The notes beneath the pieces were generated by a model. It was not told the DNA's origin, did not search any database, and saw nothing but the letters and a program-made list of their open reading frames with translations. From positions 1 through 29,889 of the IMG/VR virus record IMGVR_UViG_3300049255_000598: a DNA stretch of 29,889 bases; one strand, 5' to 3'. The position numbers and the translations under genes are program-made. Within the stretch, counting starts at the first letter, position 1. Every line of letters begins with the position of its first letter. The stretch is from a virus. Of the stretch, positions 1,941-23,407 are shown one piece after another.

Positions 1941-2284
1941 GGCCGGCCTCCGCGCTCGAAGCGGTCGAGGATGCCGGCGCAGCGCGCGCAGTCCGACAGC
2001 TCTGTGCACGCGTGGAGATGACGCTCGTCGTCCGCGCCGTGGACCTGCCAGTAGCGGGCGATGGCGAGCTGCTCACGGCGCCGCTGGCGGTCGGGCCAGG
2101 GCGGGCGGATGGCGAGCTCGCCCCAGTTCGTGGCCTGGTTCAGGAGGTGCCGCGCGTGCTGGTACGCGCGGGCCTTCAGCGCCTCGCTGCGACGCTGCTC
2201 GCAGGCCTGGCGGTGAACGCGCACGGCCAGCATCGCCAGCCACGTGAACCAGCACGCCCGAGCGAAGGCGGTGTCAGGCTGCAC
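1937..2284 (-). CDS. hypothetical early protein
   Basis: 115 residues from a GTG that overlaps the 3' end of the Gam gene by 11 bases and is preceded by a good ribosome site (GGGAGG about 5 bases upstream). Composition is Arg, Ala, His and Trp rich with helices throughout. C-terminal 'HLHACTELSDCARCAGIL' holds three Cys and two His in a spacing that could bind a metal, but it fits no family I know. Function unknown. Confidence 0.55.
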   Translation of the reverse strand: MQPDTAFARACWFTWLAMLAVRVHRQACEQRRSEALKARAYQHARHLLNQATNWGELAIRPPWPDRQRRREQLAIARYWQVHGADDERHLHACTELSDCARCAGILDRFERGGRP

Positions 2285-3083
2285 GGCGGCCTCCCTTCTG
2301 CGGGATGCGGCGGATGGGGACCGAGGTGGCGATGTTCGATGAGGCCGGCTTGATGCTGAACGTCTCGCCCTGGGTGACTGTGATGCCCTTCACTCCCGCG
2401 ACGGCTTCCGGGTTCTTCAGGATGGCGGCGCGGTCGATCTCCTGCTTGGTGCGGACGAACTGGTCGCCACCGATCTCCAGGAGGTCCAACAGGGCGGAGG
2501 CTTCGTTCTTGATGGTGACGCTGGGCGGGTTGCGCTTGAGGCTGAGGACGCCCGCGGCGAACTGGAGCTTGCTACCTTCCTCCCAGCGCTCTTCGTTGGC
2601 GACGGCCCACTTCAGGAGGCGGTCCGTCTCCGCGGAGATGGTGCCGTTCAGCTCCTGGACGGAGGCGGCGACGTTGGCGCGGAGCCGCGCGATTTCGGCA
2701 TCCACGTCGGCGTTGATCCTGGCGAGCTTGCGCTGCGCCTCGCCGATCTGGTCGATGGACTCGTTCACCTCGGTGTCGGTCATTCGGGACATGCGCTTCT
2801 CCTTGGGCTTGCTTTCGTGGCGGGTGGTGTTGGCGGCGGTGGGGAGGTTGACGCCGGCGTCTCTGATGAGGGTCCAGCGGGTCTCTGTGCCTGACTCGGT
2901 GCGACGCTCGGTGCGACGGACGTAGGGCGGTTCGGCGGAGCGGAGCTTCCGCAGTGTGCGGCGCACCGTGCGCGGCGAGGCCTCGGCGAGCTCCGTCAGC
3001 TCGTGCTGCGTGGCGGGGTGACCGACGATTCGCAGCGCGTGCCAGACCCGCTGGGCGGGTTTCGGGCCCGACGCGGCGATCAT
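2274..3083 (-). CDS. gam: Gam-type nuclease-protection protein with N-terminal winged-helix extension
   Basis: 269 residues if started at the ATG overlapping the upstream stop. Residues 98-269 (MSRMTDTEVNESIDQIGEAQ onward) match Mu Gam. They include the long coiled-coil helices (about 105-160) and the 'RWEEGSKLQFAAGVLSLKRNPPSVTI' core, and the 172-residue length fits Gam (about 174). Gam is a Ku-like dimer that binds double-strand DNA ends and shields them from exonucleases. Residues 1-75 instead read as a winged helix-turn-helix (VWHALRIVGHPATQHELTEL, then 'SPRTVRRTLRKL'). An internal AAGGAG six bases before the Met98 codon (2792-2790) suggests Gam may also be made alone. Whether one long product, the short one, or both are made cannot be told from sequence. 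Confidence 0.85.
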   Translation of the reverse strand: MIAASGPKPAQRVWHALRIVGHPATQHELTELAEASPRTVRRTLRKLRSAEPPYVRRTERRTESGTETRWTLIRDAGVNLPTAANTTRHESKPKEKRMSRMTDTEVNESIDQIGEAQRKLARINADVDAEIARLRANVAASVQELNGTISAETDRLLKWAVANEERWEEGSKLQFAAGVLSLKRNPPSVTIKNEASALLDLLEIGGDQFVRTKQEIDRAAILKNPEAVAGVKGITVTQGETFSIKPASSNIATSVPIRRIPQKGGRRAA

Positions 3084-3280
3084 GACCGAGCACCGGTGGT
3101 GTCGACGGGGACGTAGACCTCGGCGATGCAGATCTGCGCGCCCGTGAGGTCGCGGACGAAGAGGCGATTCGGCGGGGCCGGGAACACCTGGACGAGCTGG
3201 CCGACGCGCCGCGCCAGGTCGGGGTGGATGTACAGCTCGCCCTTGAGGACGATGCCGCGCTTGGTGACGGAGCGGGTCAT
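3080..3280 (-). CDS. free-standing MuA-type C-terminal beta-barrel protein
   Basis: 66 residues, ATGA-coupled at both ends (to MuB upstream and HTH-Gam downstream). The sequence 'SVTKRGIVLKGELYIHPDL' followed by 'VGQLVQVFPAPPNRLFVRDL' lines up with residues about 400-450 of the transposase in this same window ('TVTKKGVALFGGDYIHADLG' and 'VGERVEALLDPTDLGRSVIL'). That region is the beta-barrel following the catalytic core of MuA-family transposases. The protein is thus a detached copy of a transposase domain with no catalytic residues. It may bind DNA or modulate the transpososome, but that is inference. Confidence 0.7.
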   Translation of the reverse strand: MTRSVTKRGIVLKGELYIHPDLARRVGQLVQVFPAPPNRLFVRDLTGAQICIAEVYVPVDTTGARS

Positions 3281-3984
3281 CGCGCGCTCCCGAGCAGCGT
3301 GAGGGGACGGTCGCCCCACTGGGCGACGGAGACGGCCTTGTGACCGTTGCGCTTGGCGAAGCCTTCGACGCGGGCGAGACCGACGACGACGAGCCGCACG
3401 CTGCCGGCCGATTCGCGGTGCAACTGGGCGAGGAGGTCCGCTTCCACGGGGACCTCGCACAGGGTGTTGGCGAGCGTGGTGACGTCGGCGTCGGTGGCGG
3501 GGAGGAACTCCACCGTCTGCGACACGCGGCCCGAGAGCTGCGGGCGCTGCTTCACCGTGGCGAGGAACTCCCGCATCCCGACCAGGATGAGCGGCTGGGT
3601 GCTGAGGTCGTGGATGTCGCGGAGGGTTTCGACGAGGTGCTTGCGGGTGACGAGGTAGTCGCACTCGTCGACGTAGAGGGCGAGACCGCGGGCGGAGAGC
3701 TCCTTGGCGATCCACTCGACCATGAGGGCGGTGGAGGTGAGCGGGACGCTGCCCAGCTCGCGCATGATGGCGCGGCACATGGTGGCGGGAGACCAGCAGT
3801 CCAGGGCGCGGACGTAGACGGCGCCGCTCTGCACGGCAGACCATTTGATGGCGGTGGTCTTGCCGAAGCCGGAGCGGCCCCACACCACGGCGATTCCCGG
3901 CGTGGCGGGGTCACGGTCGGTGAGCTCCTGGGCGGCGTCACTGAGACGGCGGACGTTGCTGGTGAGGGCGACCTGGTGGTTCAT
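3277..3984 (-). CDS. B: MuB-type AAA+ ATPase, transposition target selector
   Basis: 235 residues. Walker A 'GRSGFGKTT' at 36-44 and Walker B 'LALYVDE' at 101-107 are intact. A sensor-like 'PLILVGM' follows, and the C-terminal region 'GSVRLVVVGLARVEGFAKRNG' is typical of MuB/TniB-like ATPases. MuB forms ATP-dependent filaments on target DNA, delivers targets to MuA and protects phage DNA from self-insertion. It lies directly after MuA with AAAGGAG upstream of its ATG and overlaps the beta-barrel gene by ATGA. It is shorter than Mu B (312 residues), as common in non-enterobacterial relatives. Confidence 0.88.
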   Translation of the reverse strand: MNHQVALTSNVRRLSDAAQELTDRDPATPGIAVVWGRSGFGKTTAIKWSAVQSGAVYVRALDCWSPATMCRAIMRELGSVPLTSTALMVEWIAKELSARGLALYVDECDYLVTRKHLVETLRDIHDLSTQPLILVGMREFLATVKQRPQLSGRVSQTVEFLPATDADVTTLANTLCEVPVEADLLAQLHRESAGSVRLVVVGLARVEGFAKRNGHKAVSVAQWGDRPLTLLGSAR

Positions 3985-4012: not shown

Positions 4013-5866
4013 TCAAAGCGCCGCGAGGATTCGCGGACGCGCGGTGAAGCCCGCCGCCAGCTGGCGCGCGGGAGAGCGGTAGAGGGGGGTCGACTCGAAC
4101 TGGCGCATCCACGCGGCTTCGTCGGCCGTGGGCATTCCCGCGCGGAGCCGCATGTACTGGGCCCAGAGGCGATCGCCCTCGTCGACTTCGACGGGGCGAA
4201 TGGGTGTGACGGTGACAGGCCTTACGGGCTCCGTAGCGACGTCCGTGGCTGGTGCGTCGAGCGCCTTGGCTGCGTCGGAGAGCGCGTCGAGGTTCTCGGT
4301 GGTGTGTTCTTCGACGCCTCGCGGCGGGAGGGCGCTGACCTTGGCGGCCTCGCGCTCGTCGCGGGCGTCGATAGCGGCGGCGATGTCGTCGGCGCCACCA
4401 GAGCGTGCCGCTTCCCGCCACGCTGCCATGCCCTCGGCCCTGGCTTCGTTCTGACGCTTGCGTGCCTGGACGGCGACGTCCTGCTGCGAGATGCCCGTGC
4501 GGACCGGATCTTCCGCGACGCAGACGAACTGCTTGTCGTGGAGGATGACGCTGCGGCCGAGGTCGGTGGGGTCGAGCAGCGCTTCGACGCGCTCCCCGAC
4601 GAGCGGCCCCAGATCGGCGTGGATGTAGTCGCCCCCGAAGAGGGCGACGCCCTTCTTGGTGACGGTGCGGTAGTGGCTGATCTCCAGGAGGAGGTCGAGC
4701 GTGCGATCCTTCTCGTGCTCCGGCTTAAGCCGACGGATGCCGCCCGTCCAGGAGCGGGCCTGGTCGAACGGGGAGACGCCGCGAAGCCCCTGGTGCGGAC
4801 GGCGCTCGTAGGTGTTGCGCACCCAGCGGTCGCACCGCTCCTGCAGCTGGTTCGCGGTCAGCTCGGCCTGGATGACCTCGTTCTTCTGCTGCAGGCGTTC
4901 GGCGAACGACGCGCGGGCGCGCAGCTCCTGGGCTTCCGCCACGTTGTGACCGGAGTAGCCGGGCAGCAGCTCGAAGAGGCCGTGGGAGAGTGTCTTGAAG
5001 ACGCGTTCGACGAAGGGCTTCTGCTCGGACGCGAACGGGGCGCAGAGGCGGTGATCGATCTCGAGCTTGCGGCACACGCCGTCGAAGCGGACGGAGACGT
5101 AGTCCTTGCCGTTGTCAGTGCGCACCGCGTCGGGCATGCCCCAGAGGAGGATTCCGCGGCGGAGCAGCGCGCAGATGGCGGCGGCCTTGCTGGTGGGGGA
5201 GACGAGGAGCAACAGCCGGCGGGACCACACGTCGATGAGACCGATGACGGTGTGCCTGCCGTCGACCAGCTGCATGTCGGCGGGCGTGCTGTCCATCTCC
5301 CAGAGCTGGTTGAGGCGAGCGATGCCGGCGGCCGCGTCACCGAACGCGACCTTCATGTGGCTCTTCCACTTGTCCGGGTTGCGGTGCCACTGCCAGATGG
5401 ACTTGTGCTTGATCTTCCAGTCGGCGAGCCAGCGCGTGATGGTGCGGCGGCTGCAAAGCTCGGCGAGGTCGGGCCGGTCCGCGACGAGCCCTTCGTGCAC
5501 GCGGATGGGCTCGACGGTGGGGTGGTGGTACAGCGCCTTGAGCAGCCACTCCTGGAGCTCTTCAGACTGGCTGATTATCCCGGTACCGGCGCGATTGCCG
5601 TAGTTGTCGGCGAGGCCGTCGGCGCCGGCCTCGTCGAAGCGGGCCTGCCACCGATAGAGGGTCGCAGGGGAGACGGTCGGGATCTCCGACTTGAGCTGCG
5701 CGTCCACCTGGAGCGCACCCGACGAGTACTTCTCGCAGAACTGCTCGGCGCCTTCGCGCTTGCCCAGGAGGGCGCGGGCGCGGAACTGCTCGCAGAGACG
5801 CAGGAGCTGGTGGCGCGCCTGCGCCACGCCCCACATCGGGGAGGATGGCGAAGTGAGCGCGCTCAC
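4013..5866 (-). CDS. A: MuA-family DDE transposase
   Basis: 617 residues (Mu A has 663), started at a GTG that overlaps the upstream stop. An N-terminal DNA-binding helix-turn-helix appears at about 64-90 (TVSPATLYRWQARFDEAG). The RNase H-like catalytic core follows with the DDE triad at D192 (WEMDSTPAD), D251 (RTDNGKDY) and E287 (KPFVERVF). The second D to E spacing is 35 residues, the D,D(35)E arrangement. The beta-barrel domain is at about 401-454, and a charged tail extends to the C-terminus. The enzyme cleaves and joins phage ends during integration and replicative transposition, acting as a tetramer with MuB. All catalytic residues are present, so the element looks transposition-competent. 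Confidence 0.95.
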   Translation of the reverse strand: MSALTSPSSPMWGVAQARHQLLRLCEQFRARALLGKREGAEQFCEKYSSGALQVDAQLKSEIPTVSPATLYRWQARFDEAGADGLADNYGNRAGTGIISQSEELQEWLLKALYHHPTVEPIRVHEGLVADRPDLAELCSRRTITRWLADWKIKHKSIWQWHRNPDKWKSHMKVAFGDAAAGIARLNQLWEMDSTPADMQLVDGRHTVIGLIDVWSRRLLLLVSPTSKAAAICALLRRGILLWGMPDAVRTDNGKDYVSVRFDGVCRKLEIDHRLCAPFASEQKPFVERVFKTLSHGLFELLPGYSGHNVAEAQELRARASFAERLQQKNEVIQAELTANQLQERCDRWVRNTYERRPHQGLRGVSPFDQARSWTGGIRRLKPEHEKDRTLDLLLEISHYRTVTKKGVALFGGDYIHADLGPLVGERVEALLDPTDLGRSVILHDKQFVCVAEDPVRTGISQQDVAVQARKRQNEARAEGMAAWREAARSGGADDIAAAIDARDEREAAKVSALPPRGVEEHTTENLDALSDAAKALDAPATDVATEPVRPVTVTPIRPVEVDEGDRLWAQYMRLRAGMPTADEAAWMRQFESTPLYRSPARQLAAGFTARPRILAAL

Positions 5867-6141
5867 TTGGCGCTCCGCGCCAGTTGGCGGAGTTCCTCAG
5901 TCGCCAGCCCCGGATTCGAACCGAGTCCTCCGGGCCCCATGCCCGGCGTGCTCCCAACACCGACTGGCGTCGTGTCGACGTAGACCGTTGCGAATGATGC
6001 GAGACACGGGATGGGGCCGAGCCAGAAGTGATGCGGGTAGAACCACAGCGTCGTGTTGTGGCGCCCGCGCACCGGCTGCAGCGGCTTCTCGCAGAGGGAG
6101 CACGGAACGATCCCGGGGTCTGTCGTCGCCGGATATTTCAT
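5863..6141 (-). CDS. hypothetical early protein with CxxC
   Basis: 92 residues from an ATG overlapping the upstream stop (ATGA); its stop overlaps the transposase start (GTGA). 'VPCSLCEKPLQPV' near residues 13-25 is a single CxxC knuckle, followed by an aromatic stretch 'NTTLWFYPHHFW' and a Gly/Pro-rich C-terminal part. One CxxC plus nearby His residues could bind a metal. No family recognised. The position directly before MuA is where small Ner-region accessory genes are found in Mu-like phages. Confidence 0.55.
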   Translation of the reverse strand: MKYPATTDPGIVPCSLCEKPLQPVRGRHNTTLWFYPHHFWLGPIPCLASFATVYVDTTPVGVGSTPGMGPGGLGSNPGLATEELRQLARSAK

Positions 6142-22454: not shown

Positions 22455-22917
22455 GACGGAGCCCTGTCCGATCGGCTGTGGGCGCAACAAGTCGGCCGAT
22501 TATCTGATGTGCCGGCCGTGCTGGTCGATGGTGCCGCGCGTCCTGAAGGGGGCGGTCTACGCGGGCGACTCGGCCGCGGGATGTCCGAGTGGGGTGTATA
22601 CTCCTGTTCAGGCTCTTGAGATAGGAAAATGTCATGTCAGTGACCAGCAGCATCGAGTGGACGAACGCGACGTGGAACCCAGTGCGCGGCTGCACCAAGA
22701 TCTCCCCTGGCTGCAAGCACTGCTACGCCGAGACCTTCTCGGAGCGGTTTCGTGGTGTGCCAGGCCACCCCTTCGAGCAGGGCTTCGACCTTCGCCTGGT
22801 GCCGACGGCCCTCGAACTGCCGTTGAAGTGGAAGAGTGGTCGCCTGATCTTCGTGAACAGCATGTCCGATCTGTTCCACGAGGATGTCCCGGATGCGTAC
22901 ATCGAGAAGGTCTTTGA
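22444..22917 (+). pseudogene. small zinc-finger gene, probably truncated by inserted cassette
   Basis: Starts MPRETEPCPIGCGRNKSADY at an ATG overlapping the N gene by 11 bases. Residues 8-27 form a C-x3-C...C-x2-C cluster followed by 'WSMVPRVLKGAVYAG', like the Zn-finger protein at 988-1203. After about residue 40 (near 22565) the sequence loses similarity. The frame simply stays open through the next gene, which is coded in another frame, until 22917. I infer that the native gene ended downstream of an insertion point near 22565-22600 and was cut by the DUF5131 cassette. Confidence 0.5.
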
Positions 22918-23407
22918 TGTGATGCGACGCGCGACTCAGCACCAGTTTCAGGTGCTGACCAAGCGCGGCGATCGGATGGCAGCGTTCACGAAGACGCGCG
23001 CGGTCCCGCCGAACGCTTGGATGGGGGTTAGTGTCGAGAGTGCCAAGTACGTGGGGCGCATCCGCCATCTGGCTCGGGTGCCTTCCAGTGTCCGGTTCCT
23101 CAGTGTCGAGCCGCTGCTCGGACCGATTCCGAACCTCCCGTTGAATGGAATCAGCTGGGTGATCGTCGGAGGAGAAAGCGGGCCAAGATCCAGACCGATG
23201 AAACCGGAGTGGGTACGTGAGATCCGTGATCAGTGCGTTGAGGCAGGCGTGCCCTTTTTCTTCAAGCAGTGGGGAACACCGCGGAAGGCAGCAGCGGGTC
23301 GCGACCTCGACGGTGCAACTTGGAACGAGATGCCGAAGGACGTACGATTGCCTCAAGTCGCCGTCGCAAAGCGTGCGCTGCTCCCAGTGGTGAACGACGC
23401 ACGCTAA
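22634..23407 (+). CDS. DUF5131 (phage Gp37/Gp68) family three-Cys-motif protein
   Basis: 257 residues. 'IEWTNATWNPVRGCTKISPG' followed by 'CKHCYAE' gives the three-cysteine cluster (C-x5-C-x2-C) of DUF5131. 'LPLKWKSGRLIFVNSMSDLFHEDVPD', 'QFQVLTKRGDRM', 'WMGVSVE', 'VRFLSVEPLLGPIPNL' and 'WVIVGGESGPRSRPM' then give a complete family match. The cysteines and barrel-like pattern recall radical-SAM proteins, but the activity is not established. Members often pair with TcmP, a remnant of which follows. Codon use is less GC-biased than in neighbouring tail genes, suggesting recent transfer. AGGA lies seven bases upstream of the ATG, and TATACT at 22597 could be part of its own promoter. Confidence 0.88.
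   Translation: MSVTSSIEWTNATWNPVRGCTKISPGCKHCYAETFSERFRGVPGHPFEQGFDLRLVPTALELPLKWKSGRLIFVNSMSDLFHEDVPDAYIEKVFDVMRRATQHQFQVLTKRGDRMAAFTKTRAVPPNAWMGVSVESAKYVGRIRHLARVPSSVRFLSVEPLLGPIPNLPLNGISWVIVGGESGPRSRPMKPEWVREIRDQCVEAGVPFFFKQWGTPRKAAAGRDLDGATWNEMPKDVRLPQVAVAKRALLPVVNDAR

Follow-up and report, generated by a model that had tools for sequence, protein, structure and literature searches.

A Mu-like phage encodes, beside MuB, a 66-aa protein that consists of a transposase beta-barrel, domain IIbeta of MuA (Mu-transpos_C, PF09299), and stand-alone barrels of this kind recur in about 15 further Mu-like lineages. The protein lies in a window of 29,889 bases, the whole stretch of DNA that we analysed, from IMG/VR virus record IMGVR_UViG_3300049255_000598, a Mu-like phage fragment. 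The free barrel is apparently a real accessory of the transposition machinery and an undescribed one. In the open-access papers that we searched, we found no description of stand-alone IIbeta barrels. A stand-alone transposase domain that recurs in the MuA/MuB operon points to an overlooked accessory. Our tentative reading is that it could be a DNA-binding accessory of target capture that derives from the transposase, is co-expressed and works with MuB and a winged-helix protein.

Gene and operon

The window encodes Mu-like_Pro/gpI, gpT major head and sheath proteins and belongs to a Mu-like phage with a contractile tail. Its early operon lies on the minus strand and comprises a Ner-like HTH ORF (6529-6290), MuA, MuB, the 66-aa ORF, a winged-helix–Gam protein, small genes, GemA (991-593) and a DnaA_C-type HTH protein. 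The roles of MuA, MuB and Gam in transposition are textbook knowledge. The MuA-like DDE transposase has 617 aa (4013..5866, minus strand; rve PF00665; phrog_310, E 9e-79), and its barrel occupies residues 392-450 (4517..4693, minus strand; PF09299, E 4e-10). It is followed by a MuB-like AAA+ transposition protein of 235 aa (3277..3984, minus strand; PF13401, E 4e-15; phrog_296, E 6e-47). Downstream of the 66-aa ORF, a phrog_2030-like winged-helix domain (residues 6-92) is fused to the end-protection protein Gam (2274..3083, minus strand; Phage_Mu_Gam PF07352, E 3e-25).

The 66-aa ORF starts with ATG and spans 3280..3080 on the minus strand. A Shine-Dalgarno sequence, GGGAG (3287..3291, minus strand), lies 6 nt 5' of the start codon. 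Four-nucleotide ATGA overlaps, also on the minus strand, join the MuB stop to the barrel start (3277..3280) and the barrel stop to the winged-helix–Gam start (3080..3083). G+C at the three codon positions is 0.69/0.46/0.93, compared with 0.69/0.48/0.93 for MuB. The ORF is a real gene, correctly recognised. Under the operon coupling of our preferred explanation, the barrel would be co-translated with MuB and the winged-helix/Gam protein.

Domain identity and predicted fold

PF09299 matches residues 2-51 of the 66-aa protein at 30.7 bits, above its cut-off of 21.7 (E 3.2e-7). BLASTP aligns the protein with the barrel of the operon's own MuA at 21 of 53 identical residues (40% over 53 aa; E 2e-7), a match far above chance. 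The first-pass annotation had proposed this alignment from two strings, and both were confirmed: SVTKRGIVLKGELYIHPDL covers residues 4-22 of the 66-aa protein, and TVTKKGVALFGGDYIHADLG begins at residue 401 of the window MuA. Searching the record in all six frames gave no barrel beyond these two. The match to phrog_310 covers the barrel region only (487-546 of 696). Absent from the protein are the RNaseH-like DDE catalytic core, as the same annotation had stated, and the transposon-end DNA-binding domains Ibeta and Igamma; what is left is a free-standing MuA domain IIbeta barrel. There is no HTH match, which was our test for Ner/C-type early repressors, and the model consists of beta strands and one short helix. 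NCBIfam and PADLOC give no match.

AlphaFold2, run on a mixed alignment that included MuA barrels, predicted the structure with pLDDT 90.2 and pTM 0.71. Because that alignment held MuA barrels, we repeated the prediction with stand-alone barrels only; this gave pLDDT 92.1 and pTM 0.74 with unchanged secondary structure. When the first model was compared to the PDB with Foldseek, the top 18 matches were all MuA, TnsB or IstA chains, with probability near 1 and E 0.03-0.9. These E-values are weak (0.03 at best), as expected at 55 residues, and the claim is carried by the clean ranking and the sequence profile. The second model superposes on TnsB (7svw) with a VIA Z of 8.6 (1.4 A over 55 residues) and on MuA (1bco) with a VIA Z of 6.4 (rmsd 1.9 A over 56 residues), whereas the best non-transposase chain reaches a VIA Z of 3.8. 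The structural check suggested in the first-pass annotation therefore returned the MuA/TnsB/IstA barrel as the predicted fold and not an unrelated one. Taken together, the profile and the models make the domain assignment and the predicted fold secure.

By profile and predicted fold, the protein is the same domain as MuA IIbeta (PF09299; PDB 1bco, 1bcm, 4fcy), but it has a gene to itself and lacks domains I, IIalpha and III as well as the D-x-x-D-x-G loop. Its best structural match is the TnsB barrel (‘middle domain’) of type V-K CAST (7svw, 8aa5), which is one domain of a transposase rather than a separate protein. BFVD contains another protein that is barrel only, the 73-aa A0A8S5MQA4 of Podoviridae sp. 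ctUS21 (Foldseek E 7e-5, target TM 0.70); its name, ‘Transposase’, is an automatic annotation.

Recurrence in Mu-like phages

Direct searches of IMG/VR, GTDB contigs, INPHARED and plasmids found no close homologue of the 66-aa protein. Relatives were obtained by fetching MuA loci and then scanning small ORFs with barrel profiles, so the search is anchored on MuA. The gene, which might have been taken for a single oddity, turned out to belong to a recurrent class found beside MuA and MuB. Free barrels lie between MuA and MuB in L005, L007, L008, L011 and L181 (67 aa); 3' of MuB in L166/L189; 3' of MuA in L283; and upstream of MuA in L169 (two in tandem), L173/L174, L073, L268, L270, L278 and L017. 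L345 has one further copy. A plausible Shine-Dalgarno sequence precedes every free copy whose upstream sequence is present in the data. Seven copies pass the Pfam cut-off (L181, L189, L169a, L173, L005, L007 and L017), seven fall below it (L268, L270, L283, L073, L008, L011 and L169b), and the L278 copy has no Pfam match. One candidate, H65, was dropped when it turned out to be a MuA-like frame, and small-frame PF09299 matches in L180, L182, L183 and L184 were excluded because their frames were transposase-like or truncated.

With the window included, 15 of the 227 MuA clusters (95% identity) carry a free barrel, about 6%; this figure is rough, with upstream flanks often cut, L181 taken from a separate survey and two of the scans seeded with carriers' MuAs. 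A survey of 398 genomes from a single phylum gave roughly 120 Mu-transpos_C matches, nearly all within long transposase frames, and we therefore consider the stand-alone form uncommon. No free barrel was detected in nine isolate phages (Mu, B3, MuM16-1, vB_RhkS_P1, HS6, RR1-B, RC1, ThpS-P1 and MP22), a scan in which even MuA's own barrel went undetected in B3. Searching the phage collection with other free copies by tblastn gave no stand-alone gene. The fetched loci also include an unannotated record labelled as a Staphylococcus aureus phage (L334; CP062450.1, ‘Staphylococcus phage ECel-2020c’) that has a Mu-type transposase frame including a barrel.

Some free barrels are parts of larger proteins. 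In L005 (3314-3718), L007 (3523-3927) and L008 (3017-3478), the barrel is joined to a conserved C-terminal region (GELVT...GMVLQCDYVNQFYLVQ), which may be a second small beta domain. Such varied fusions, which also include a CxxC-rich N terminus in L283 and a long protein in L017, would fit a barrel co-opted for a task other than transposition, for example against a host or defence target. We think this very unlikely: the 66-aa protein matches no defence or anti-defence family, and all copies lie in or beside the early transposition operon, although a search anchored on MuA could hardly find others.

Link to a winged-helix protein

In the fetched loci, MuB nearly always has a phrog_2030-like winged-helix gene nearby, at most 1.6 kb downstream in 291 of 313 (loci partly redundant). 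By gene order it corresponds to MP22 orf8 and RC1 RHWG_00046, and it normally has no barrel. In L166/L189 the order is MuA, MuB and then a barrel fused to the phrog_2030 winged helix (phrog_2030, E 7e-49), with the barrel start overlapping MuB at an ATGA as in the window. In the window, the winged helix forms the N-terminal domain of the ORF that comes next, and the barrel gene overlaps this ORF. Barrel and winged helix are thus fused in one phage and encoded by adjacent coupled genes in another, which is a gene-fusion argument for joint function. The winged-helix frame of the window stays open upstream through the barrel gene, and a frameshift may yield a product that joins the two.

This partner also raises the possibility of a transcriptional regulator of the early operon, in which the barrel would serve the winged-helix protein as a DNA-contact or dimerisation module and adjust MuA/MuB expression, as Ner does in Mu. 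The phrog_2030 protein fused to the barrel in L166/L189 is named for ‘transcription regulation’, but this name rests on annotation only. Further copies occur early in the operon, upstream of MuA, and the tandem genes of L169 directly follow a divergent repressor-like region. Ner and other early negative regulators of Mu are likewise small early-operon proteins beside MuA; Ner, however, has an HTH fold and no relation in sequence or fold to the free barrel. In transposases the barrel is a non-specific DNA binder without an HTH, and the window already has a separate gene for a Ner-like HTH protein. On balance, a regulatory role appears unlikely. The two L169 genes (1599-1799 and 1835-2068) come after a region read in the divergent direction, close to where the early operon starts.

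Conserved residues and proposed role

Five positions of the profile (R15, K19, G21, D47 and G52) are nearly invariant among MuA barrels. The free copies keep the arginine in 15 of 17 cases, and K/R and G mostly. They differ in the D-x-x-[DN]-x-G loop, which is found in 260 of 324 MuA barrels and in none of 16 free copies; the loop is common in transposase members and is not a formal criterion of the PF09299 family. Some MuAs lack it too, including that of L166, and we rejected the idea that its loss was specific to the free barrel of that phage. A net positive charge was likewise rejected as a general feature, since it is inconsistent and several copies are not net positive.

R3 of the window protein aligns with R416 of TnsB. 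In the TnsB barrel, R416, Q427 and N428 contact the target-DNA backbone, and R416 helps to hold the 5' overhang (PMC9527255). The DNA role of the barrel in MuA-type enzymes is disputed: one account describes MuA IIbeta as a barrel that binds DNA non-specifically and recognises the target (PMC3362531), whereas another group places it out of reach of target DNA in the Mu complex, unlike in TnsB (PMC9371665). The retained equivalent of TnsB R416, the lost DxxDxG loop and the winged-helix fusion would speak for DNA binding rather than for mere imitation of MuA. In the mechanism that we propose, the free barrel would dock on the DNA backbone with the same edge by which MuA and TnsB engage target DNA. 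Once docked, it would help or tune target capture by the MuA–MuB complex, either alone or with the winged-helix protein encoded almost invariably after MuB. Against such a DNA accessory, several free copies carry no net positive charge, and some lie upstream of MuA near the repressor and not beside MuB.

Barrels also make contacts between transposase subunits. In IstA, a subunit's barrel sits on the RNaseH module of a different subunit (PMC10122671), and in TnsB, the IIbeta sheet of one subunit is completed by an Ibeta/NTD1 strand that a second subunit contributes (PMC9371665, PMC9527255). A free barrel might fill such inter-subunit sites of the transpososome in trans, either on a neighbour's DDE domain or where domain Ibeta completes the barrel sheet, and so inhibit or tune transposition as a modulator of MuA assembly. 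The free barrel of L166, 61% identical to the barrel of its own MuA, would suit this role. The window copy would suit it less well: it shares about 50% identity with MuA barrels from other phages, compared with 40% for the barrel of its own MuA. A mimic of subunit contacts might also need the DxxDxG loop that the free copies lack. Assembly modulation seems to us improbable, and an accessory of target capture that binds DNA is the reading we keep, tentatively. The 66-residue protein would itself be a reagent for probing the role of IIbeta in target DNA binding and subunit contacts, where the literature disagrees.

Evolution and selection

The free barrels of L005, L007, L008 and L011 group together. 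For the L005/L007 pair, dN and dS are 0.29 and 0.98 for the barrel gene, compared with 0.10 and 1.19 for MuA. The barrel gene of this pair is under purifying selection, more weakly than MuA. The L173/L174 pair has dS = 0 and is uninformative for dN/dS. A tree of 80 short barrels needs four label changes (3-4 in bootstraps), but a single origin passes the AU test (p 0.46); the barrels are too short for the tree to give a count of origins. It is possible, if doubtful, that Mu-like phages repeatedly release the IIbeta barrel as a trans-acting factor, sometimes fused to a winged helix, which would make it a hitherto unrecognised third component of MuA/MuB target capture or immunity.

Partial duplication of MuA could also leave a decaying remnant without function, and the small size of the gene and its sporadic occurrence in about 6% of MuA clusters fit this picture. 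Such decay is hard to reconcile with exact domain boundaries, a Shine-Dalgarno sequence, ATGA coupling on both sides and coding base composition, or with a high-confidence fold (pLDDT 90-92), recurrence and a dN/dS of about 0.3 in one pair. We regard a remnant as most unlikely, and continue to prefer an accessory of target capture.

Other features of the window

The window MuA aligns from about position 106 of phrog_310 and seemingly lacks the N-terminal Ialpha of the usual MuA; we recognised no separate gene for the Ialpha region upstream of it. ARAGORN calls a tRNA-Pro (TGG anticodon; 5900-5969, minus strand) between the Ner-like ORF and MuA. A 92-aa ORF at 5863-6141 overlaps this call and may be spurious. 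The window Gam (2274-3083, minus strand) carries an N-terminal winged-helix domain, which is related to the protein usually found after MuB. A DUF5131 protein (PF07505, E 3e-100) is encoded among the tail genes at 22634-23404 on the plus strand.
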